The translations under genes were made by a program, and so were the position numbers. This document shows positions 1 to 13,069 of a stretch of DNA of 64,000 nucleotides, one piece after another (positions within the stretch are counted from its first letter, which is position 1; each line of letters opens with the position of its first letter). Below the pieces are notes generated by a model. That model ran no database searches. It was given only the letters and a program-made list of their open reading frames with translations, and was not told the origin of the DNA. Source of the stretch: Halobiforma lacisalsi AJ5 (GTDB lineage Archaea > Halobacteriota > Halobacteria > Halobacteriales > Natrialbaceae); the NCBI RefSeq assembly GCF_000226975.2, contig NZ_CP019285.1, forward strand, positions 4,030,001 to 4,094,000, written 5' to 3'.

Positions 1-788
1 TCCGTCGTCCCGACCTCCGCGAACTCACCCAGGTACATCACCGCGATCCGGTCGGAGATGTGTTCGACCACGCTCAGGTCGTGAGCGATGAAGATGTACG
101 AGAGGCCGAACTCCTCCTGGAGGTCCTCGAGCAAGTTGAGGATCTGGGCCTGCACGCTGACGTCCAGCGCGCTGACCGGTTCGTCACAGATGATGATCTC
201 GGGGTCGACCGCGAGTGCGCGGGCGATGCCGATACGCTGACGCTGTCCCCCCGAGAACTCGTGGGGATAGCGGTGTGCGTGGCTGGCGTTCAGGCCGACC
301 GTCTCGAGGAGATCGTAGATACGATCGGTTCGCTCCTGGCCCGAGGCGATGTCGTGGATGTCGAGGGGTTCACCGATGATGTCCCCGACGGTCAGCCGCG
401 GGTTCAGGCTCGAGAACGGGTCCTGGAAGATGTACTGGAGGTCAGTCCGCAGGTCCCGGAGCCGGCTGTTCGAGATCTCGGTCAGATCGACCTCCTGGCG
501 TTCGGGTTCGCCCGGGCCCTCGCGACGGTCGACGGCCTCCTGGTAGTACACCGAGCCGTCGGTCGGCTCGATCAGCCGGAGCAGCGTCTGGCCGAGGGTA
601 CTCTTCCCGCAGCCGCTCTCCCCGACCACGCCGAGGGTCTCGCCCTCGTAGAGCTCGAGGTCGACGCCGTCCACGGCCTTGACCCACTGGGTTCGGCCGA
701 GGATGCTGTCGATGACTCCGCTACTGCTGTCGTAGTACTTCTCCAGGTTCTCGGCCCGCAACAGGGGCCTCTCGTTCGGTCTAGTCAT
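1..788 (-). CDS. Oligopeptide/dipeptide ABC transporter ATPase, OppF/DppF type (partial)
   Basis: Second ATPase of the peptide importer. It hydrolyses ATP at the cytoplasmic face to power uptake through the two permeases encoded upstream. About 262 codons are visible and the C-terminus lies beyond the window edge. Walker A GESGCGKST is at about residues 56-64, the signature FSGGQRQR follows, and Walker B reads IIICDEPVSALD with the expected D-loop. The ATG at 786-788 overlaps the end of the preceding ATPase gene by 8 nt, so translation is probably coupled. It is the last gene seen in a five-gene minus-strand operon. The peptide substrate is inferred from family membership only. Confidence 0.93.
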   Translation of the reverse strand, partial: MTRPNERPLLRAENLEKYYDSSSGVIDSILGRTQWVKAVDGVDLELYEGETLGVVGESGCGKSTLGQTLLRLIEPTDGSVYYQEAVDRREGPGEPERQEVDLTEISNSRLRDLRTDLQYIFQDPFSSLNPRLTVGDIIGEPLDIHDIASGQERTDRIYDLLETVGLNASHAHRYPHEFSGGQRQRIGIARALAVDPEIIICDEPVSALDVSVQAQILNLLEDLQEEFGLSYIFIAHDLSVVEHISDRIAVMYLGEFAEVGTT

Positions 789-1920
789 CGCTTTCACCTT
801 CCGGGTTCGCGTTGGATTCGGTACGACGGCCCGACCGGGCGTTCGGGTTCGCGACTGCGGCTTCCGTATCGCCGTCGGTGTCCGGATCGCGGATTTCGAC
901 CGAGTAATCGAGCCCCTCCTTCAGCGCTCCCGTGTACTCGAGACAGGCAGCGGTGTGTTCGGTCGGCGATTCGAGGCCGCGTTCGGGTTCGCCAGTTTCG
1001 GGATCGAGCAGCGGCGGTTCCTTCCGGGTACAGGCTTCCTCGGCGAACGGACAACGCGGGTGGAAGCTACAGCCGGAGGGCAACTCGACGAGGTCCGGCA
1101 TCGTGCCGGGGATCGTCTGCAACCGCTCGCGTTCGTCCCCGATCCGGGGGATCGAACTCATCAGACCGACGGTGTAGGGGTGTTTGGGATCGTAGTAGAG
1201 GTCCTCGACCGGAGCCTTCTCCACTGGCTTGCCAGCGTACATCACCATCACGCGATCGCAGACCTCGGCGACGACCCCGAGGTCGTGGGTGATCAGCTGG
1301 ATCGCAGTGTCGAACTCGTCGGCGAGTTGCTCGATCTCCTCGAGGATCTGGGCCTCGATCGTGACGTCGAGCGCCGTGGTCGGCTCGTCACAGAGCAACA
1401 GGTCGGGATCACAGGACAGCGCCATCGCGATGACGGCTCGCTGTTGCATCCCGCCGGAGAACTCGTGAGGATAGTCGGAGTACCGGGCTTCGGCCTCCGG
1501 AATGCCGACGCGGTCGAGCAGTTGGATCGTCCGCTCTTTCGCTTCCTGGTCGTCGTAATCGAGGTGGTGTCTGATCGCCTCGGAGACCTGTTCGCCGACG
1601 GTGTAGACGGGGTTGAGCGCGGTCTGGGCGTCCTGGAAGATCATGGCGATCTCGTTGCCCCGAATCTCTCGGAGCTCCTCCTCGCTCATCTGGAGGAGGT
1701 CCTCGCCCTTGAACAGGATCTCGCCGCTCTCGATCCGTCCGGGACTCTCGATGAGCCGCATTAGCGAGAGCGCGGTGACGCTTTTGCCTGCCCCGCTCTC
1801 GCCGACGACGCCGAACTTCTCCCCGCGTTCGATCCGGTAGGAGAGGTCGTCGACGGCGGTGACGACGCCCTCCTTCGTGTAGAACTTGACCGTCAGGTCG
1901 TTGACTTCGATCAGCGACAT
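781..1920 (-). CDS. Oligopeptide/dipeptide ABC transporter ATPase, OppD/DppD type
   Basis: ATPase subunit of 379 aa that pairs with the OppF-type ATPase. Walker A GESGAGKS is at residues 40-47, the signature FSGGMQQR and Walker B DLLLCDEPTTALD follow. A cysteine-containing C-terminal segment (CSFHPRCPFAEEAC, near residues 285-300) is the oligo_HPY extension typical of peptide and nickel importer ATPases. A disordered acidic tail follows. The start codon overlaps the upstream permease stop by one base (ATGA), and the end overlaps the next ATPase. Substrate cannot be read from sequence; peptides are the usual choice for this family. Confidence 0.95.
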   Translation of the reverse strand: MSLIEVNDLTVKFYTKEGVVTAVDDLSYRIERGEKFGVVGESGAGKSVTALSLMRLIESPGRIESGEILFKGEDLLQMSEEELREIRGNEIAMIFQDAQTALNPVYTVGEQVSEAIRHHLDYDDQEAKERTIQLLDRVGIPEAEARYSDYPHEFSGGMQQRAVIAMALSCDPDLLLCDEPTTALDVTIEAQILEEIEQLADEFDTAIQLITHDLGVVAEVCDRVMVMYAGKPVEKAPVEDLYYDPKHPYTVGLMSSIPRIGDERERLQTIPGTMPDLVELPSGCSFHPRCPFAEEACTRKEPPLLDPETGEPERGLESPTEHTAACLEYTGALKEGLDYSVEIRDPDTDGDTEAAVANPNARSGRRTESNANPEGESDD

Positions 1921-2966
1921 CAGGCACCACCCTGTTGACCCGCGCCCGTCTCCTGGGCGTCGAGCGCGTCGTTGATTCCGTCACCGATCATGTTCATCGC
2001 CATCACGAACATGAAGATGGCTGCGCCGGGGAACACCGTCGCCCACCAGGGGATCGTACCGTCGGGACCCTGAATGAGCGTCTCACGTGTCTGGTCGAGC
2101 ATGGTCCCCCACTCCGCGCTGCCCGGCGGCATCCCGAAGCCGAGGAAGCCAAGCGCCGCGACGCCGATCACGACGGTCCCGACGTTCAGCGACGCGACGA
2201 CGAGCAGCGGCGGCATCGCGTTCGGAACGATGTGTCTGAAGATCACGGACTTGTCTCGTGCACCGAGGGCCTTGGCGGCCATCACGTACTCGTTTTCCTT
2301 GACCTTCAGTACCTCACCACGGATCAGACGGGCATAGCTCGCCCAGCCGACAAGCGAGAACGCGAGCACGAGTTGCCAGTAGCCACCGCCGAGCATCGCG
2401 ATGATGACCAGCGCCATGACCAGGAACGGGAAGGCGAAGATGGTGTCGACGAGACGCATCATGATCTCGTCGGTCCAGCCGCCGTAGTAGCCCGACACGG
2501 CCCCGTAGATGGTACCGAACGATGCCGTGATCACGACGACGATGAAGCCGATCGAAATGCTGTAGCGGCCGCCGTAGAGGAGCCGGGAGAACAGGTCCCG
2601 GCCGGACGCGTCCGTTCCCATCCAGTTCGTGGTCGACGGCGGGTCGTACACGCCGATCGATGGATCCTGTAGGTAGAGGATCGCCGCCGGGTCGTACGGG
2701 GCGAGCGAGAACGGCTGGACGGTCGTCCCCATCACCGAGATCGGCCGCGCGAAGATCGCCACCAGCGAGAGGAAGGAGACGACCGCGAGGCCGATCAGCG
2801 CGGTCCGGTTCCGTTTGAACCGTTCCCAGCCCCGCTGCCACCGCGTCTGTGTCTCGTCGCCGGACTCTTCACTCCAGTCCGAAAGCGGTTCGCGTCGTTC
2901 GACCTTCTCCGCGTCGAAACCGCTGATCTGGATCCGGCCACGCTCTGCGGAAATCTTCCTAGTCAT
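1920..2966 (-). CDS. Peptide ABC transporter permease, OppC/DppC type
   Basis: Inner-membrane permease of 348 aa. A charged cytoplasmic N-terminus of roughly 50 residues is followed by an OppC N-terminal helix, a periplasmic-type loop containing the YDPPSTTNWMGTDASGRD stretch typical of OppC, and a BPD_transp_1 core of about five helices. The EAA loop (ALGARDKSVIFRHIVPNAMP) contacts the ATPases. It overlaps both neighbours (8 nt with the OppB gene, 1 nt with the ATPase gene), so the operon is tightly coupled. Confidence 0.95.
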   Translation of the reverse strand: MTRKISAERGRIQISGFDAEKVERREPLSDWSEESGDETQTRWQRGWERFKRNRTALIGLAVVSFLSLVAIFARPISVMGTTVQPFSLAPYDPAAILYLQDPSIGVYDPPSTTNWMGTDASGRDLFSRLLYGGRYSISIGFIVVVITASFGTIYGAVSGYYGGWTDEIMMRLVDTIFAFPFLVMALVIIAMLGGGYWQLVLAFSLVGWASYARLIRGEVLKVKENEYVMAAKALGARDKSVIFRHIVPNAMPPLLVVASLNVGTVVIGVAALGFLGFGMPPGSAEWGTMLDQTRETLIQGPDGTIPWWATVFPGAAIFMFVMAMNMIGDGINDALDAQETGAGQQGGA

Positions 2967-3915
2967 ATCTGATCCTCGGATCGAGTACCGCGTACATGAT
3001 GTCTGCTACCAGATTCGCGATGATGATAGTAACCCCGAAAAACAGGGTGATCGCCATGATGAGATTGACCTCTCGACCGTTGATCGCCTCGACGAACTCC
3101 ATGCCGAGACCCGGCCAGTTGAAGACGTACTCCACGACGACCGACCCGGAGACGATGCTTGCAGTCAGTGTCGCCGCGAGGGTAACGACCGAGATCAGGG
3201 AGTTACGGAGGACGTGCTTGAGCACGACCGACCGCTCGGGCAGTCCCTTCGCGCGGGCCGCCGTCACGTACTCCTTGTTCATCTCCTCGGCCATCGAGGT
3301 CCGCATGACGCGCATGATCGATGCCGCCGACGCAGTCCCGATCGTGATCCCCGGGAGCAGCAGGTACCACAGCATGTCCGGGTGGTACAGCGGCTGCCGG
3401 GAGGGCGGCAACACGTTCCACCAGCCGAGCCACAGCGACCCGATCAGGATCAGCATCAGCCCGAGCCAGAAGTTGGGGATCGAGATACCGGACAGGGCAA
3501 GGAAGCGGCTGATCGTGTCGCCGAGCTTGTCCTTGTTGACCGCCGCGTAGATCCCGGTCGGGATGGCGATGATCAGTCCGAACGCCCAGCCGAACAGGCC
3601 GAGCACGATCGTTTCCGGCAGTCGCGTCATGATGATCTCGGTGACGTCCCGTCCGGTGCTGATCTCCTCACCGAAATCGCCGACGACGATGTTCTCCATC
3701 CACGTCAGGTACTGCTGCCAGATAGGACCGTCGAGCCCGTAGCGGGCGCGGAGGCGTGCCTCGTCGGCGGCCGTCATATCGGGATTCAACCCGACCATCT
3801 GGCTGATCGGATCACCCGGTGTTAGATGAACGAGCGCGAACGTGATGACCGATACACCGAACAGTATCGGTATGATCGAGAGGAACCGTTTCAGTATGAA
3901 ACGTCGTAAACTCAT
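2959..3915 (-). CDS. Peptide ABC transporter permease, OppB/DppB type
   Basis: Permease of 318 aa. It starts MSLRRFILKRFLSIIPILFGVSV, the standard OppB N-terminal helix, and has the conserved HLTPGDP motif and an EAA loop (ARAKGLPERSVVLKHVLRNS). Six membrane helices are expected. It forms the translocation pore with the OppC-type protein encoded just downstream. It begins 47 nt after the binding-protein gene ends, in the same direction, fitting one transcript. Confidence 0.95.
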   Translation of the reverse strand: MSLRRFILKRFLSIIPILFGVSVITFALVHLTPGDPISQMVGLNPDMTAADEARLRARYGLDGPIWQQYLTWMENIVVGDFGEEISTGRDVTEIIMTRLPETIVLGLFGWAFGLIIAIPTGIYAAVNKDKLGDTISRFLALSGISIPNFWLGLMLILIGSLWLGWWNVLPPSRQPLYHPDMLWYLLLPGITIGTASAASIMRVMRTSMAEEMNKEYVTAARAKGLPERSVVLKHVLRNSLISVVTLAATLTASIVSGSVVVEYVFNWPGLGMEFVEAINGREVNLIMAITLFFGVTIIIANLVADIMYAVLDPRIRYD

Positions 3916-3962: not shown

Positions 3963-5903
3963 TTAGAGGTCGTACTCTTCGACTACCTCATCGAGCAGTT
4001 CTTCCGCGCGGTCGGGGTCGTACTCGTTGGTCGGCTTGATCTCCGCCTCGAGCGCTTCGGGGTCTGCGGTCCCGCTCTCCTCGGCGAGTTGCGGGATGTC
4101 GGTCCAGGCCGGTCGAGCCCAGCCGTTGAGGACGTTCTCGACGATCCGTTCTCGCGGGACGAGATGGTTGACCGCAGTGCGGAGGCGCTCGTCGTCCCAC
4201 GGCTCGACGTTGACGGGGTACTGGATGTACTCGTAGCCACCGGTCTCGACGGCGTCGATGAAGAAGCCGTCGGACTGGTCGAAGTCGTCAAGCGTCGCCG
4301 TCGCGAGCCCGTAGGTGACGTCGATCTCCTCGTTCTGGAGCGCACCCGATCGGGTCGCGTCGTCGGGGACGATCTCGAACTCGATATCCTCGATGACTGG
4401 ACCGTCGGGGAACTCCGAGGGGCCATCGAACCAGTCGATCGAGTCCACGCCGAGTTCCTCGGTCCAGTAATTGTCGAACTTGGAGTACTCGGCGTACTGC
4501 TCGTCGACGAACTCCTCGAACTCGTAGGGGCCGGTACCGATGGGTTCGTTACCCTGTCGCGGGTCGAGGTCGCCGCCCTCGAGGTCGACCTGTTCCAGCG
4601 AGTGGATGTAGACGGCGGGGAGTTCCCGCTCGGCCTCGGCGTCCGGAACCTGCGCGTAGATGTTGACGGTGTAGTCGTCGACTTGCTCGACGTAGAGCGC
4701 GGAGTCGAACGTCTGGGCCGAGAGGTCGGAGTTCTCGTAGCGCTCGTAGGAGCGGACGACGTGTTCGGCGGTGAGTTCCTCGCCGTTGTGGAACTCGACG
4801 CCCTCGCGGATGTCGTACTGGAACTGCATCCCGAAGGTGCCGTCAGCGACGGCCTCGCCGGCCTGTTCGGGCGTGAGGACGCGGACCTCGTCGTCCCCGA
4901 ACGGATCGTCTTCGGGGTGCTGGACGATGATCTGCTCGTCGGTGTCGAGGACGCCTTCGTCGTCGGCACCGACCGAGATCATGTACTCCTCGTAGGCGGT
5001 CCGGTCGATGTCCTGGGTCTCGACGAGTTCGTAGTCCTCGGCGAGCCACGGATACACGTTCCCGTCGGCGTCGGAGGTAATGAGTTGCTCGAAGACGAAG
5101 TTCTGGGCCATCGTCGACGTCGTGTCGTTGCTGTACGGCGGGTCGAACGAGTCGACGTTCGCGCCGGCACCGATCCGAAGCGTTCCGCCTTCCTGCAGGT
5201 CGCCGAGGCCCGTCTCCTCCGGCGTGGCGTCGCTGTCGCGGTCGAGCCAGGAAACCTGTTCGTCCTCGGGCGCGTAGAGTCCGTAACTGAACAGTCCCTC
5301 CGTGAACGGGTACGTACTGTACCCGTGCAGGTCGTTGGACATTACAGGCGCGAGGAGGTCGAAGTGGGTGATCGAGCTGTATCGGTTCTCGGCGAGTCGC
5401 TCCCAGACCTCGTCGTAGCGCTCGGCACGGAGTTCGGGGTCGTCGACGACGTCCATGTCGTACCGGGCGTCGTCCATCATCTCGTCGAGCTCGGGATCGT
5501 TGATCCCCTGGAGGTTACAACACTGCCCGTGGTTGCTCGAGTGGTGGAGGGCGTTACAGAAACTCTCGGGGTTGAACGTTCCCGACAGGCCGATGCACGC
5601 GATGTGGCCGCGTTCGGCGTACTCGGTGTCGAGGAGACGTCCGACGTACGTGTTCCACTCATAGGTCTCGATCGTGGTATCGAAATAACCGGTCTGTTCC
5701 ATCGACTCCGCGATCAGCTCCACCATCTGAACGCGGTCGTCGTTGTCAGCGTTGACTTCCAGCTGAATCTGGAACGGCGCATCTCCTTCCTCTTCTTCAT
5801 CACCGAGGCACCCGGCGACTGCGACGATGCCAGCACCGCCTACCCCCTGTAGGACTTGACGTCGGTTGATATCGCGTCCCGACTGATTGTTATTCTGCAC
5901 CAT
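3963..5903 (-). CDS. Peptide ABC transporter substrate-binding lipoprotein (SBP_bac_5), lobes in permuted order
   Basis: Predicted extracellular lipoprotein of 646 aa that captures substrate for the importer downstream. A Tat signal (NRRQVLQGVGGAG) and lipobox (AVAGCLG, Cys at about 32) open the protein. The order of the mature part is abnormal. Residues about 41-221 look like the C-terminal lobe of family-5 binding proteins (LIAESMEQTGYFDTTIETYEW, then INDPELDEMMDDARYD). Only at about residue 239 does the usual mature N-terminus appear (GGTLRIGAGANVDSFDPPYS). The protein stops after DPDRAEELLDEVVEEYDL, the point at which the C-lobe normally begins. The frame is open throughout. This is a circular permutation or a rearranged gene. 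The family call is firm; whether it still binds ligand is unknown. Confidence 0.9.
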   Translation of the reverse strand: MVQNNNQSGRDINRRQVLQGVGGAGIVAVAGCLGDEEEEGDAPFQIQLEVNADNDDRVQMVELIAESMEQTGYFDTTIETYEWNTYVGRLLDTEYAERGHIACIGLSGTFNPESFCNALHHSSNHGQCCNLQGINDPELDEMMDDARYDMDVVDDPELRAERYDEVWERLAENRYSSITHFDLLAPVMSNDLHGYSTYPFTEGLFSYGLYAPEDEQVSWLDRDSDATPEETGLGDLQEGGTLRIGAGANVDSFDPPYSNDTTSTMAQNFVFEQLITSDADGNVYPWLAEDYELVETQDIDRTAYEEYMISVGADDEGVLDTDEQIIVQHPEDDPFGDDEVRVLTPEQAGEAVADGTFGMQFQYDIREGVEFHNGEELTAEHVVRSYERYENSDLSAQTFDSALYVEQVDDYTVNIYAQVPDAEAERELPAVYIHSLEQVDLEGGDLDPRQGNEPIGTGPYEFEEFVDEQYAEYSKFDNYWTEELGVDSIDWFDGPSEFPDGPVIEDIEFEIVPDDATRSGALQNEEIDVTYGLATATLDDFDQSDGFFIDAVETGGYEYIQYPVNVEPWDDERLRTAVNHLVPRERIVENVLNGWARPAWTDIPQLAEESGTADPEALEAEIKPTNEYDPDRAEELLDEVVEEYDL

Positions 5904-7838: not shown

Positions 7839-9086
7839 TCAGTCCGGCCGGTCGTCCCCCAATATCGCGACGAGCGAATCGGCGATTTCGCCGGCCAGCC
7901 CCGCCTTCGTCCCTTCGTACCTGGCGGCGTCCTTCTCGTGGACGAACAGCGCCTTCGTCCGGTCCGCGCCCATCACGCTCGCGTCGTTGGCGACGACGAA
8001 CGCGAGGTCGGTCCGCTCGAGCGTTTCGCGTGCCCGATCGATCATCGTGCTTTCGTCCCCGGAGGTCTCGGCTTTGAACCCGACGATCGGGAGTTCCGGT
8101 CGGTCGGCGCGAATCTCGTCGATGAGCTTCGGCGTCGGCTCGAACTCGAGTTCTAAGTCTCGCCCGGAGCGGATCTTCTCGTCGCTGGTCTCGACCGTGT
8201 AGTCGCCGATCGCGGCGGCGGAGACGAGCGCGTCGGCCCCGGTTTCGTGTGTGCCGTTTCCGGTCCCGTCGCCGAGACACGCTTCGCGGGTCGCTGCGAG
8301 CATCTCGGTGGCGCTCTCGACCTCCCGGACGTCGGCGTAGGGGACCGACGCCGGGATCTCCGTCGCGGCCGACCGCTCGAGCGACTGCGGGCCGACGACC
8401 CCGTGGACGAGCGTCACGTCCGCGCCGCGGACGTAGCAGGCCCGGGCGACGGCCCGGCCCATCCGTCCGGACGACCGGTTCGTGAGCACGCGGACCGGGT
8501 CGATCGATTCGGCGGTCGCGCCGCTCGTAACGACCACGTGCTCGCCCTCGAGCGGCCGGTCGCCGGCGGCGCGGGCGACCTCACAGACGATCGCCTCCTC
8601 GCTTGCGATCTTCGCCTTTTCCTCCTCGAGGCGTGGATCGACGAAGTCGACGCCCCACTCCGCGACGGCGTCGATCGCTTCGAGGACGCCCGGATGGTCG
8701 TACATCGGTTCGTGCATCGCCGGGGCAATCACGACCGGCGTATCCGCGCCCAGGGCGGTCGTCGCGCAGGTCGTCACCGGCGTGTCGTCGACTGCGTTCG
8801 CGATCTTGCCGACGGTATTGGCCGTCGCCGGAGCGATCAGGAAAACGTCGGCCCAGCCGTCCCGACCGCAGAGTTCGACGTGTTCGACCGCGCCCGTGAT
8901 CTCGGTGACGACGTCGTTGTCGGTCGCGAACTCGACGGCCCACGGGTGGACGATGCTGCGCGCGCTGTCGGTCATCACGGCCCGGACCTCGGCACCCCGG
9001 CGTCGCAACTCGTGGGCGAGTTCGACCGTCTTGACTGCCGCGATCGATCCGGTTACCCCGAGCGCGACGTTGACTCCCTCGAGCAT
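7839..9086 (-). CDS. coaBC: Bifunctional phosphopantothenoylcysteine decarboxylase / phosphopantothenate-cysteine ligase
   Basis: Fusion enzyme of 415 aa for coenzyme A synthesis. The N-terminal CoaC flavoprotein half (about 1-185) begins LEGVNVALGVTGSIAAVK and carries APATANTVGKIANAVDD and PAMHEPMY. The C-terminal CoaB ligase half starts near VVVTSGATAESIDPVRVLTNRS and contains the GFKAET motif. It joins cysteine to phosphopantothenate and then decarboxylates the product. Length matches the family. Only 53 nt separate it from the oxidoreductase gene upstream on the same strand. Confidence 0.95.
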   Translation of the reverse strand: MLEGVNVALGVTGSIAAVKTVELAHELRRRGAEVRAVMTDSARSIVHPWAVEFATDNDVVTEITGAVEHVELCGRDGWADVFLIAPATANTVGKIANAVDDTPVTTCATTALGADTPVVIAPAMHEPMYDHPGVLEAIDAVAEWGVDFVDPRLEEEKAKIASEEAIVCEVARAAGDRPLEGEHVVVTSGATAESIDPVRVLTNRSSGRMGRAVARACYVRGADVTLVHGVVGPQSLERSAATEIPASVPYADVREVESATEMLAATREACLGDGTGNGTHETGADALVSAAAIGDYTVETSDEKIRSGRDLELEFEPTPKLIDEIRADRPELPIVGFKAETSGDESTMIDRARETLERTDLAFVVANDASVMGADRTKALFVHEKDAARYEGTKAGLAGEIADSLVAILGDDRPD

Positions 9087-9139
9087 TCGTCCCGAACTCT
9101 CGTTCGCGGTATGTTAAGCGTAGCGGGGCGTCGTCGATT

Positions 9140-9931
9140 CTACTCGTCGCTCGAGTCCGCGACGCTCGGGTGCATCGTCGGCTCCTCGTCCAACGGCTCC
9201 GCGAACGCCTCGAGGATCGTCTCCCGCGCCCGTTCGTCGCGGCGTTTTCGTTCCTCTTCGTCGATCTCCTCACAGCCGGGCGGCACTTCCCGTCCGCGTC
9301 CGGTGAAGTAGCCCTCGGGGGTGACCCAGTCGTGATAGAAGCTGACGTCCGAGTCGTGAATGACCGCGAGGCCGACCTTCGCACCGTGACCGGCCGCGAC
9401 GATCGCCTGGTGTGGCTCGCCGGCGATCCGTCCCGCCGCGTACACGCCGTTGACCGCCGTCCGCCCGCCATCGTCGACCGAGACGAAGTGCTTGCTCCCC
9501 CGCTGAACCCGGCCGACGTCCAGCGGTTCGAGGTAGTCGCTGTCGGGCCACGAGGCCGCGATCACCCGTCGCGCCTCGAGGGGGTCGCCGCCCTCAGTCT
9601 CGAGGACGAACCCCTGCTCGAGGTCGGATTCCGCGACCGGTTCGGCGCGGGCCACCCGTCCGAGTTCGAACGTCGCGCCAGCGTTCTGGGCCTGCTCGCG
9701 GACGAGTCGCAGGTACTGGCGGGCGTCGACGCCGTCCGGGAAGCCGGGGTAGTTCTCGAGGCTGGCGTTGCGCGCGAGGATGGACTCGCCGCCGTCGTCG
9801 CCGGACTGCGTCCGGCTGCTCGAGGGACGTGGTCCCTCGCTGATGACGAACGTGTCCAGCCCCGCGCGTGCAGTGAAGATCGACGCGGCGAGGCCGGAGA
9901 CACCCCCGCCGACGATGCAAACGTCTCGCAT
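9140..9931 (-). CDS. NAD(P)/FAD-dependent oxidoreductase, thioredoxin-reductase-like
   Basis: Protein of 263 aa starting MRDVCIVGGGVSGLAASIFTA, a classic FAD Rossmann motif. A second conserved FAD motif, NGVYAAGRIAGEPHQAIVAAGHG, lies near residue 165. The fold resembles thioredoxin reductase. It is shorter than usual (about 310 aa) and no redox-active CxxC is visible, so a disulfide reductase activity is doubtful. The ATG at 9929-9931 is chosen because the upstream extension in frame is compositionally unlike the family. The substrate is unknown. Confidence 0.8.
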   Translation of the reverse strand: MRDVCIVGGGVSGLAASIFTARAGLDTFVISEGPRPSSSRTQSGDDGGESILARNASLENYPGFPDGVDARQYLRLVREQAQNAGATFELGRVARAEPVAESDLEQGFVLETEGGDPLEARRVIAASWPDSDYLEPLDVGRVQRGSKHFVSVDDGGRTAVNGVYAAGRIAGEPHQAIVAAGHGAKVGLAVIHDSDVSFYHDWVTPEGYFTGRGREVPPGCEEIDEEERKRRDERARETILEAFAEPLDEEPTMHPSVADSSDE

Positions 9932-10080
9932 ACCGCGGCGTTCGCCCGCACGCCTATAGAACTTGCCGCCTCGTCCGCTCGGTCGACCCGGGGACGACTC
10001 GGTCCGCCCCTCCGTCGCCGCGAACACGCCGATTCGTCCCCTTCCGCTCGGAGAGTAACTCTTACTTTCGAACCGCACGT

Positions 10081-10641
10081 ATGCCCTTCGTGGACAGAAT
10101 TCTCCTCAGTACCGTCGCTTACCGCCCGCCGGAGGAGGTCTTTCCGTACGTGCGGTCGTTCACCGAGTACCCCCGCTACACCGAACACCTGAAAGATGTT
10201 GCCGTCCACGGCGACGGCGACGCGGGATCGGTCTACGACCTCCGGCTGACCTGGTGGAAGCTCAGCTACACCGCCCGCTCGCGGGTCACGTCGGTCTCTC
10301 CGCCCGAGTCGCTCGAGTGGCAGTTGGTCAACGACATCGACGCCCGCGGGGAGTGGCGCGTCGAGCCGGAGCCGGGGGCAATCCCCGACGGCGGCCCGAC
10401 CGGAAGCGACGTCGAAGCGGAGACGCCCAGCCGGATCTACTTCGAGGCGGTCTACGATCCCTACTCGGCCAACAAGGACGCGATTTCCCTGCCGCGGTTC
10501 GTCTCCCTGGACTGGGTCGTCGAGAAGGTCCAGCCGCGACTCCTGCGCGAGGCCGAAACGGTCGTCGAGCGTCTCGTGGCGGACATCGAGGGACGGGACG
10601 AACCCCGCGAGGTCGAGTTGACGGTCCACGAGATGCCGTAG
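10081..10641 (+). CDS. SRPBCC-fold protein (polyketide cyclase / coenzyme Q-binding type)
   Basis: Protein of 186 aa, probably cytoplasmic, with the START-like fold that binds lipids or hydrophobic ligands. Recognisable parts are RPPEEVFPYVRSFTEYPRYTEHLKDV near the N-terminus and a C-terminal helix (FVSLDWVVEKVQPRLLREAETVVERL). A TATA-like TAACTCTTA is centred about 26 nt before the ATG, so the transcript is probably leaderless. It is divergent from the FAD oxidoreductase. No ligand can be assigned. Confidence 0.8.
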   Translation: MPFVDRILLSTVAYRPPEEVFPYVRSFTEYPRYTEHLKDVAVHGDGDAGSVYDLRLTWWKLSYTARSRVTSVSPPESLEWQLVNDIDARGEWRVEPEPGAIPDGGPTGSDVEAETPSRIYFEAVYDPYSANKDAISLPRFVSLDWVVEKVQPRLLREAETVVERLVADIEGRDEPREVELTVHEMP

Positions 10642-10759
10642 CCGGGTCTCGTTCCGAGTGGACTCGAAACGTGGCGATTTCAGACGGACTACTGTCTCCC
10701 AGTACCGGCTCGACCGGAATCGTCCCCCAGTCGGAGCGGGACATCCGGGCCGCGGATCG

Positions 10760-11920
10760 TCACTCGTCCTCGAACGACTCGAGGAGGACCACGTCGCCGC
10801 GCATGGTCATCTGGTGTGGTTCACAGACGTATTCAGCTAACTCCTCGGTTGCCGTAACAGTGAGCGTACGTGTTTCGTCGTCGTCTTCGATGAAATCGGT
10901 CGCGTACTCGTCGACGACGCCCTCGTTCTCGTCCCAGAGTTGAAAGTCGTGTACGGAACCGTCGCCGTTGACGACGGTAAACGTGTACTCTCGGCCCTCC
11001 TCGAGGACGAGCGTCGGGTTCTCGACTCCCTCGATGTGGTCGGGTACGCTGCCGGTCCACCCCGACACGTTCGCCTCGAGTTCGATCTCCGTCACGTCGG
11101 TCCAGGGACTCGGATCTACCAGGGAGACCGTCTCGAGGACCAGTGCCCCGGGCTCGGCCGGATCGTCGACCGCGGTGACGACCTCGTACGTTCCCGCGGG
11201 GACGCCCTCGTTCTCGGCGGAAATGGTGATCGTCTCGCCGGGTTCCTCGAGTCGATAGTCGCCGGGATCGAACGCAGATTCGTCGTCCCCGTCGGTCACG
11301 AAGACGGTCGCCGCGTCATTCCGGTCGAGAAGCGTAATTTCGGCCGTCCCGAGATCCCCCGTCCGGACCTGGACCGCAGCGTTGGTCCGTGGACGGAACA
11401 GTTGGGAGTCCCCCTGGTACCACGCGTACCACTCGTCTTCGATTTCGACCACGATCGCCCTGGCCCGTCGGTCGTACCGCTGGCCGGTCGCCTCGTGTTC
11501 GAGTTCGAGGGCGTACTCGAGTTGGTGCTCCGCGTCGACCGTCCCGTCCTCGAACAGGTCCAGCGTGTCGATGCGATCCCTCGCTTCGCCCCGGAAGGCG
11601 ATCGAGCGGACGGCGTCGGGAGTCCAGAATTCGCCGTAGGCCCGCTCCCAGCTCTCTTGACCGCTGTCGACGACGTACTCGTGCGGGGCGTACGACGCCG
11701 CCTCCGTCGCGTTACCGGCGGCGACCGCCTCGATCGTGGCTTTACCGACCGCTCGGGCTTCCTCGGGGATGCCGTCGTCCGCCCCGTCGGCTTCGTCGTC
11801 GTCCGTTCGGTCGTCGGATTCGTCCTGGGGACCGTTGGAGGGCTCTGCGGTGGTATCATCGAGACAACCGGCGAGTCCCGTGAAGGCGAGACCGCCGACG
11901 AGGAGGTATCGTCGTCCCAT
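10760..11920 (-). CDS. Tat lipoprotein with NTF2-like and plastocyanin-like copper domains
   Basis: Secreted lipoprotein of 386 aa. GRRYLLVGGLAFTGLAGCLDD gives a signal with lipobox. After an acidic linker comes an NTF2-like region (about 55-165, AVGKATIEAVAAGNATEAAS onward), then a beta-rich pilin-like domain, then a cupredoxin-like C-terminus (about 300-386). The latter has a VHDFQLW histidine and the type 1 copper cluster YVCEPHQMTM (Cys, His and Met in order). An electron-transfer or copper-binding role outside the cell is inferred. The ATG at 11918-11920 is preferred over an upstream TTG because TTTATATTTTT lies about 26-30 nt upstream. Confidence 0.8.
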   Translation of the reverse strand: MGRRYLLVGGLAFTGLAGCLDDTTAEPSNGPQDESDDRTDDDEADGADDGIPEEARAVGKATIEAVAAGNATEAASYAPHEYVVDSGQESWERAYGEFWTPDAVRSIAFRGEARDRIDTLDLFEDGTVDAEHQLEYALELEHEATGQRYDRRARAIVVEIEDEWYAWYQGDSQLFRPRTNAAVQVRTGDLGTAEITLLDRNDAATVFVTDGDDESAFDPGDYRLEEPGETITISAENEGVPAGTYEVVTAVDDPAEPGALVLETVSLVDPSPWTDVTEIELEANVSGWTGSVPDHIEGVENPTLVLEEGREYTFTVVNGDGSVHDFQLWDENEGVVDEYATDFIEDDDETRTLTVTATEELAEYVCEPHQMTMRGDVVLLESFEDE

Positions 11921-11989
11921 CGAGTTAGTTTTCAATCACTTCTACAAAAATATAAAACTGAAGGTCCGCGAGGAGTCGATCGGGGAGGA

Positions 11990-13069
11990 CTAAAACGTGT
12001 ACTCGTGACTCCCGCCTTCGCTCTCGAGGAACGCCTCGAGCAGATCGATCGTCGCCGCGACGTCCTCGACGTGGGCCGTCTCGGTGACGGTGTGGAGGTA
12101 CCGCGTCGGGATCGAGATCGCGCCGACCGGCTTCGCGCCGGCCGTATTCTGGAAGCCGGCCGTGTCGGTCCCGCCCGAGGGGAGGATCTCGAGCTGGTGG
12201 TCGATCCCCTCCGCCTCGGCGACCGACTGCATCCGCTTGTGGACCTTCGGGCTGGTGATTACGCTGCCGTCTTTGAGTTTGATCGCCGTTCCCTCGCCGA
12301 GTTCGGTGACGTGCTCGCCGTCGTCGAACCCGGGCACGTCGTTGGCGACGGTGACGTCCAGGGCGACGGCGAGGTCCGGATCGACGTCGACTCCCAGCGC
12401 CTTCGCACCGCGCAGGCCGACCTCCTCCTGGACGGTCGCACAGAAGTGGATCGTCGCGTCGGGGTCCTCGATCCGGCGGGCCGCCTCGAGCATGGCGAAC
12501 AGGCAGACGCGGTCGTCCAGGGCCTTCCCGGTGACCGTCTCGCCGACGCGCTCGGTCGTCTGGTCCATCGTCACGAGGTCCCCCGGAGAGACGCGCTCTT
12601 CGAGTTCCTCGTAGGGAAGGCCGACGTCGACGAAGACGTCCTCGACCTCGGGGGATTTCTCGCGGTCCTCCTCGTCCAGCGTGTGTGGCGGCGGCGAGCC
12701 GATGACGCCCGGCAGGTCGCCGTCGTCGGTGTGGATCGTCACCCGCTGAGCCTTCAGCACGCGGGCGTCCCACCCGCCCAGCGCCTCGAGTTCGAGGAAG
12801 CCGTACTCGTCCTCCTCGCCCGCGACGTGGCGGACCATGAAGCCGATCTCGTCCATGTGGGCGGCGACGCCGACGGAGAAATCCGAATCGGCGTCGCCCT
12901 CGAGCGTCCCGACGACGTTACCCATCGCGTCGGTCCGGACTCGATCGACGGACTCTTCGAGTTCGGCCACGACGAGTTCGCGGACCCGGTCCTCGTAGCC
13001 CGGAACACCGCTCGTCTCGGTGAGGTCGCGAAGCAGATCGAAATCGAACGGGGTCGAAGCGGATGCCAT
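11990..13069 (-). CDS. M42 family aminopeptidase (TET/glutamyl aminopeptidase type)
   Basis: Cytosolic metallopeptidase of 359 aa. The family forms large TET assemblies that trim peptides released by proteases such as the proteasome. Metal and catalytic elements are visible in order: AAHMDEIGFMV, LDDRVCLFAML, QEEVGLRGAKAL, PSGGTDTAGFQ, and a C-terminal RYLHTVTETAH. Length and motif spacing are normal. Specific peptide preference cannot be predicted. Confidence 0.92.
   Translation of the reverse strand: MASASTPFDFDLLRDLTETSGVPGYEDRVRELVVAELEESVDRVRTDAMGNVVGTLEGDADSDFSVGVAAHMDEIGFMVRHVAGEEDEYGFLELEALGGWDARVLKAQRVTIHTDDGDLPGVIGSPPPHTLDEEDREKSPEVEDVFVDVGLPYEELEERVSPGDLVTMDQTTERVGETVTGKALDDRVCLFAMLEAARRIEDPDATIHFCATVQEEVGLRGAKALGVDVDPDLAVALDVTVANDVPGFDDGEHVTELGEGTAIKLKDGSVITSPKVHKRMQSVAEAEGIDHQLEILPSGGTDTAGFQNTAGAKPVGAISIPTRYLHTVTETAHVEDVAATIDLLEAFLESEGGSHEYTF

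Follow-up and report, generated by a model that had tools for sequence, protein, structure and literature searches.

The gene at 3963..5903 of the window (the whole 64,000-nucleotide stretch of Halobiforma lacisalsi AJ5 analysed here) raises the question of whether a substrate-binding protein (SBP) that carries its two parts in the reverse of their usual order is a natural circular permutant, and, if so, how such an order arises. The gene, its parts and its operon partners are as follows.

3963..5903, minus strand: circularly permuted family-5 substrate-binding lipoprotein gene, 646 amino acids (PDB, Pfam and orthologue alignments; rotated alignment)
5811..5903, minus strand: Tat signal peptide (RRQVLQ) to lipobox, residues 1–31 (sequence; weak TAT_signal match)
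5808..5810, minus strand: lipobox Cys32, predicted lipid anchor (sequence; Cys invariant in aligned orthologues)
5235..5783, minus strand: segment A, residues 41–223, equivalent to the canonical C-terminal part, that is, the bulk of domain III plus the old C-terminus (alignments)
5193..5234, minus strand: fusion linker, residues 224–237, bridging the former C-terminus and the end of the former N-terminal linker (..GLGDLQ-EGGTL) (sequence)
3966..5192, minus strand: segment B, residues 238–646, corresponding to the canonical N-terminal part (Pfam, PDB, orthologue and rotated alignments)
3966..4019, minus strand: new C-terminus, DPDRAEELLDEVVEEYDL, the helix immediately preceding the cut loop (cut-site comparison)
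2959..3915, minus strand: OppB-type permease (BPD_transp_1), the next gene of the operon (Pfam, context)
1920..2966, minus strand: OppC-type permease (BPD_transp_1, OppC_N) (Pfam, context)
781..1920, minus strand: OppD-type ATPase (ABC_tran, oligo_HPY) (Pfam, context)
3..797, minus strand: OppF-type ATPase, truncated by the window edge (Pfam, context)

The 646-residue protein belongs to family 5: PF00496 matches it with 191 bits against a curated cut-off of 32.4, over a best stretch that covers only profile positions 16–275 of 368 and lies in the second half of the protein. Its alignment to PDB sequences (phmmer) falls into three stretches in permuted order; for AppA (1xoc), query residues 230–291, 350–601 and 39–200 align to residues 12–73, 71–310 and 356–507, respectively. 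When the sequence was rotated back by hand, a single alignment crossed the cut, spanning AppA 71–507 and DppA (8z1z) 88–523, and the E-value against DppA went from 2.6e-12 to 2.2e-15; the permutation is therefore present in the sequence, far beyond chance. These alignments, to structures of the SBP_bac_5 family and to haloarchaeal homologues, had been proposed in the original prediction, and they bear out the inverted lobe order that it described: the canonical succession of N-lobe and C-lobe is reversed, which makes the protein a permuted variant and not a canonical member. The predicted succession of segment A and segment B stands, with corrected borders, in that segment A ends at about residue 223 (WLDRD) instead of 221 and EGGTL begins at 238 instead of about 239, with a linker between them. 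The other arrangement then considered, in which residues 41–221 would be an extra domain beside a second C-lobe, is excluded because each family-5 half is present once; no second C-lobe was found in the 646-residue protein.

The protein resembles the known SBP_bac_5 (cluster C) proteins DppA, OppA, AppA and NikA in that both halves align, the operon partners are the same and the alignment is continuous after rotation, and differs from them in its permuted order and in an N-terminal anchor that would, by homology, sit on domain III. Both termini of DppA and OppA lie in domain I. Among the PDB family-5 chains, none was found to span the junction. The AlphaFold (AF2) model of the window protein, built from just 11 sequences, reached a pLDDT of only 45.6, so the permuted fold is read from sequence. 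Segment A contains the motif GQCCNL (5517–5528, minus strand), whose Cys pair is kept in the window's own group of permuted proteins (group 1) and in canonical relatives; the pair is possibly a vicinal disulphide or a metal site close to the binding region. Segment B carries an acidic insertion of about 60 residues (residues ~295–357) that separates the first strands of the N-lobe from the main family-5 region and is missing from the homologues in the PDB.

The expected features of a Tat-exported archaeal lipoprotein, twin arginines and a lipobox cysteine, both precede segment A, as had been predicted, in the form of NRRQVLQ and AGC (Cys32). The gene is the first of an intact SBP–OppB–OppC–OppD–OppF operon, with the two permeases, of Opp/Nik/Dpp type, and the two ATPases of an Opp/Dpp-type importer. 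We describe it as very probably encoding the membrane-tethered SBP of a complete Opp/Dpp-type ABC importer that is naturally circularly permuted. A short linker joins what was once the C-terminus to the former N-terminus, and the break in the chain lies between the helix ..DRAEELLDE.. and the strand after it; homology to DppA and AppA places this cut loop in domain III. In DppA, the peptide-binding aspartate is D436 in precursor numbering, taken as D408 of the mature protein (PMC12136057). The equivalent residue is Asn in all 38 aligned group 1 rows and in most canonical relatives, and Asp in group 2, a separate lineage of permuted proteins with the same kind of operon. The ligand of the window operon may thus differ from plain peptides. 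Elsewhere, one permuted SBP–OppB–OppC set (L142 in G117, 8333–12175) has no OppD or OppF of its own; the convergent operon beside it encodes a canonical SBP together with both ATPases, and the set may share the latter.

Full-length orthologues with the same order are present in Halobiforma haloterrestris (98% identity), H. nitratireducens (80%), Natronococcus (68%), Halorubrum (~66%), Halostagnicola (54%) and many more genomes. With a profile built from permuted genes, 71 of 391 genomes of the class have a match across the whole junction (counted from the match listing), whereas canonical genes give two separate half matches only. Homologues in rotated order and an alignment that is continuous after rotation, both seen here, are the marks of natural circular permutation, which had been predicted for this family and which proves common and recurrent. 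That the order reflects an assembly rearrangement or a swap within this single genome, the alternative raised at the outset, had nothing beyond the initial oddity in its favour and is excluded for practical purposes because independently sequenced genera, including single-contig genomes, share the order with full reading frames.

The ratio dN/dS (Nei–Gojobori), low in both halves, is 0.11 for the comparison with H. haloterrestris and 0.24 for that with H. nitratireducens; the permuted order is thus conserved and under purifying selection within a conserved operon. A decaying or non-functional fusion, to which the Asn at the position of DppA Asp408 might point, is very hard to reconcile with these ratios, with an order kept over many genera and with an intact operon, and the same Asn occurs in most canonical relatives. 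Judged from its sequence record, the permuted gene encodes a genuine variant that most likely works; it does not reflect a sequencing error.

Comparison of permuted proteins revealed at least four cut sites, among which one loop of domain III is used most often. In most lineages, the cut falls between a helix (..ERAEELLEE..) and the next strand, where the loop of bacterial AppA is longer; it lies before the helix in group 2 and after it in group 1 and others. In canonical relatives, a strand such as FPLEVQLE comes after the equivalent of DPDRAEELLDEVVEEYDL. In one metagenome-assembled genome (MAG; L068), the first 75–90 residues of the mature N-lobe are found at the C-terminus, within the same operon type. 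Four bacterial proteins (L267, L270, L271 and L272) are cut mid-protein, at about profile position 185, a site unlike all those of archaea.

Permuted genes are frequent in the genomes sampled. Across five haloarchaeal genomes, 44 family-5 genes were counted, of which 21 are permuted; for the genome that holds the window, the figure is 4 of 7. Two matches that are second stretches of counted genes were not counted anew, and a few canonical calls were made by profile coverage alone. The window's genome holds two further large permuted family-5 SBPs a few kilobases apart (L254, G000:C1:3599404-3603613; open frames of 743 and 807 amino acids), and another of 718 amino acids at 3050818 (L252). For the phylum to which a Clostridiales MAG belongs, 60 matches among those listed span the junction, in 38 of 299 genomes. 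Twenty of these bacterial junction matches were fetched; all are permuted, and four have their cut mid-protein.

A single ancient permutation inherited by all permuted members might account for this spread. One large permuted clade does unite the majority of haloarchaeal permuted genes not in the window's family with some bacterial ones, and to that extent the spread goes back to a single old event; monophyly of group 2 is not rejected (p = 0.35). Against a single origin, the cut sites differ, and group 1 as one clade is rejected on the protein tree (lnL difference 112, AU p = 0.001) and in the trees of the separate halves (p = 0.002 and 0.033). Moreover, at least 8 order changes were counted on the first protein tree (81 rows) and 12 are needed on the broad tree (92 rows), where well-supported branches make at least 7 unavoidable for the canonical label; these counts are estimates because deep branches are weakly supported. 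Two pairs of close relatives with opposite orders, described below, add to this, and we consider a single origin without repeated events very improbable. Permutation of family-5 SBPs is instead recurrent in both archaea and bacteria, with the number and direction of events uncertain, and some canonical genes may be reversions.

The orthologous operons of other haloarchaea contain the SBP in either order, canonical or permuted. The clearest in-place switch is between G144 (permuted) and G188 (canonical), in which the best match of both halves of the G144 protein is the G188 protein (77% and 73% identity over trimmed columns). The tree of OppB and OppC pairs the two operons (100/99), as do the trees of either half (98/95 and 92/90), and their DNA is collinear upstream and downstream (blastn), with only segment A displaced: it follows segment B in G188 and lies between the signal peptide and segment B in G144. 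In another archaeal class, a permuted lipoprotein (L160–L162) is 85–86% identical in each half to a canonical protein of the same genus (L164); the flanks of this pair are not syntenic.

Among the alternatives, the one that survives best is that recombination with a permuted paralogue in the same genome, through gene conversion or replacement, switched the order, and not a new duplication and trimming in place. Many haloarchaea have several permuted family-5 paralogues, and a local donor of nearly identical sequence remains compatible with the data. However, the halves and permeases of G144 and G188 are mutually closest and their flanks are syntenic, which indicates rearrangement of the gene itself, not its replacement by a distant paralogue, and we regard recombination with a paralogue as an unlikely but not negligible source of the switch.

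Duplication and trimming in place is probably how the permuted order arose. If the mature coding region had been duplicated in tandem and in frame, and the outer halves (the first B and the last A) had then been lost, the observed junction would be what is left. In line with the original prediction of this route, the old C-terminus (..WLDRD) is retained at the junction and runs into the end of the old N-terminal linker (..DLSDLQEGGTL). A search beside the genes for duplication intermediates or flanking remnants gave nothing convincing. Permutation by duplication is described for the Solanaceae Pot II inhibitors (PMC2259423; topic page PMC3320104). Tandem duplication and trimming of that kind would likewise yield the junction seen here; the Pot II case differs from ours, in which no intermediate was found and the mechanism is deduced.

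Such an event would have moved the lipid anchor from lobe I to lobe III, and the permuted chain would adopt the two-lobed structure typical of cluster C and deliver its ligand to OppBC. Tolerance specific to Tat export, with folding before export, was considered as the sole cause of permutation and rejected: permuted proteins of bacteria, among them L255, L256 and L258, bear, by eye, Sec-type lipoprotein signals, so Tat export is not required. In a further permuted SBP (L124/L159 in G590), a cleavable signal is combined with a C-terminal PGF and hydrophobic tail; this tail is PGF-CTERM-like, so the anchor is presumed to be at the new C-terminus.

The closest precedent for the window protein is TpMglB-2 (Tp0684), a glucose-binding lipoprotein of cluster B whose chain is circularly permuted (PMC4990184). 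It represents a permuted subclass in treponemes and Gram-positive bacteria and keeps both binding and conformational change, and its authors suggested in 2016 that the topology relates to anchoring (PMC4990184). Like TpMglB-2, the window protein is a naturally permuted, tethered SBP of an ABC importer; unlike it, the present case concerns family 5, a different cluster and fold class, with several cut sites, repeated switches and members in both archaea and bacteria. No report of permuted family-5 SBPs was found in the openly accessible literature searched. The recurrence is the surprising part. Natural circular permutation is usually regarded as rare and old. Here, one widespread family shows repeated changes of order, and permuted genes pass as ordinary SBPs, hiding the rearrangement, because their Pfam matches are partial yet above the cut-off.

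We lean, by a modest degree, towards the reading that family-5 SBPs are prone to permutation, with the order flipping in both directions within a conserved importer operon, preferably at one loop of domain III, because relocation of the tether to the opposite lobe is either tolerated or favoured by selection. As close canonical and permuted partners exist in the same operon or genus, the origin of the permuted order, its folding cost and the effect of the tether on transport are directly testable, and with them the idea that permutation of an SBP is an adaptation of its anchoring (PMC4990184).
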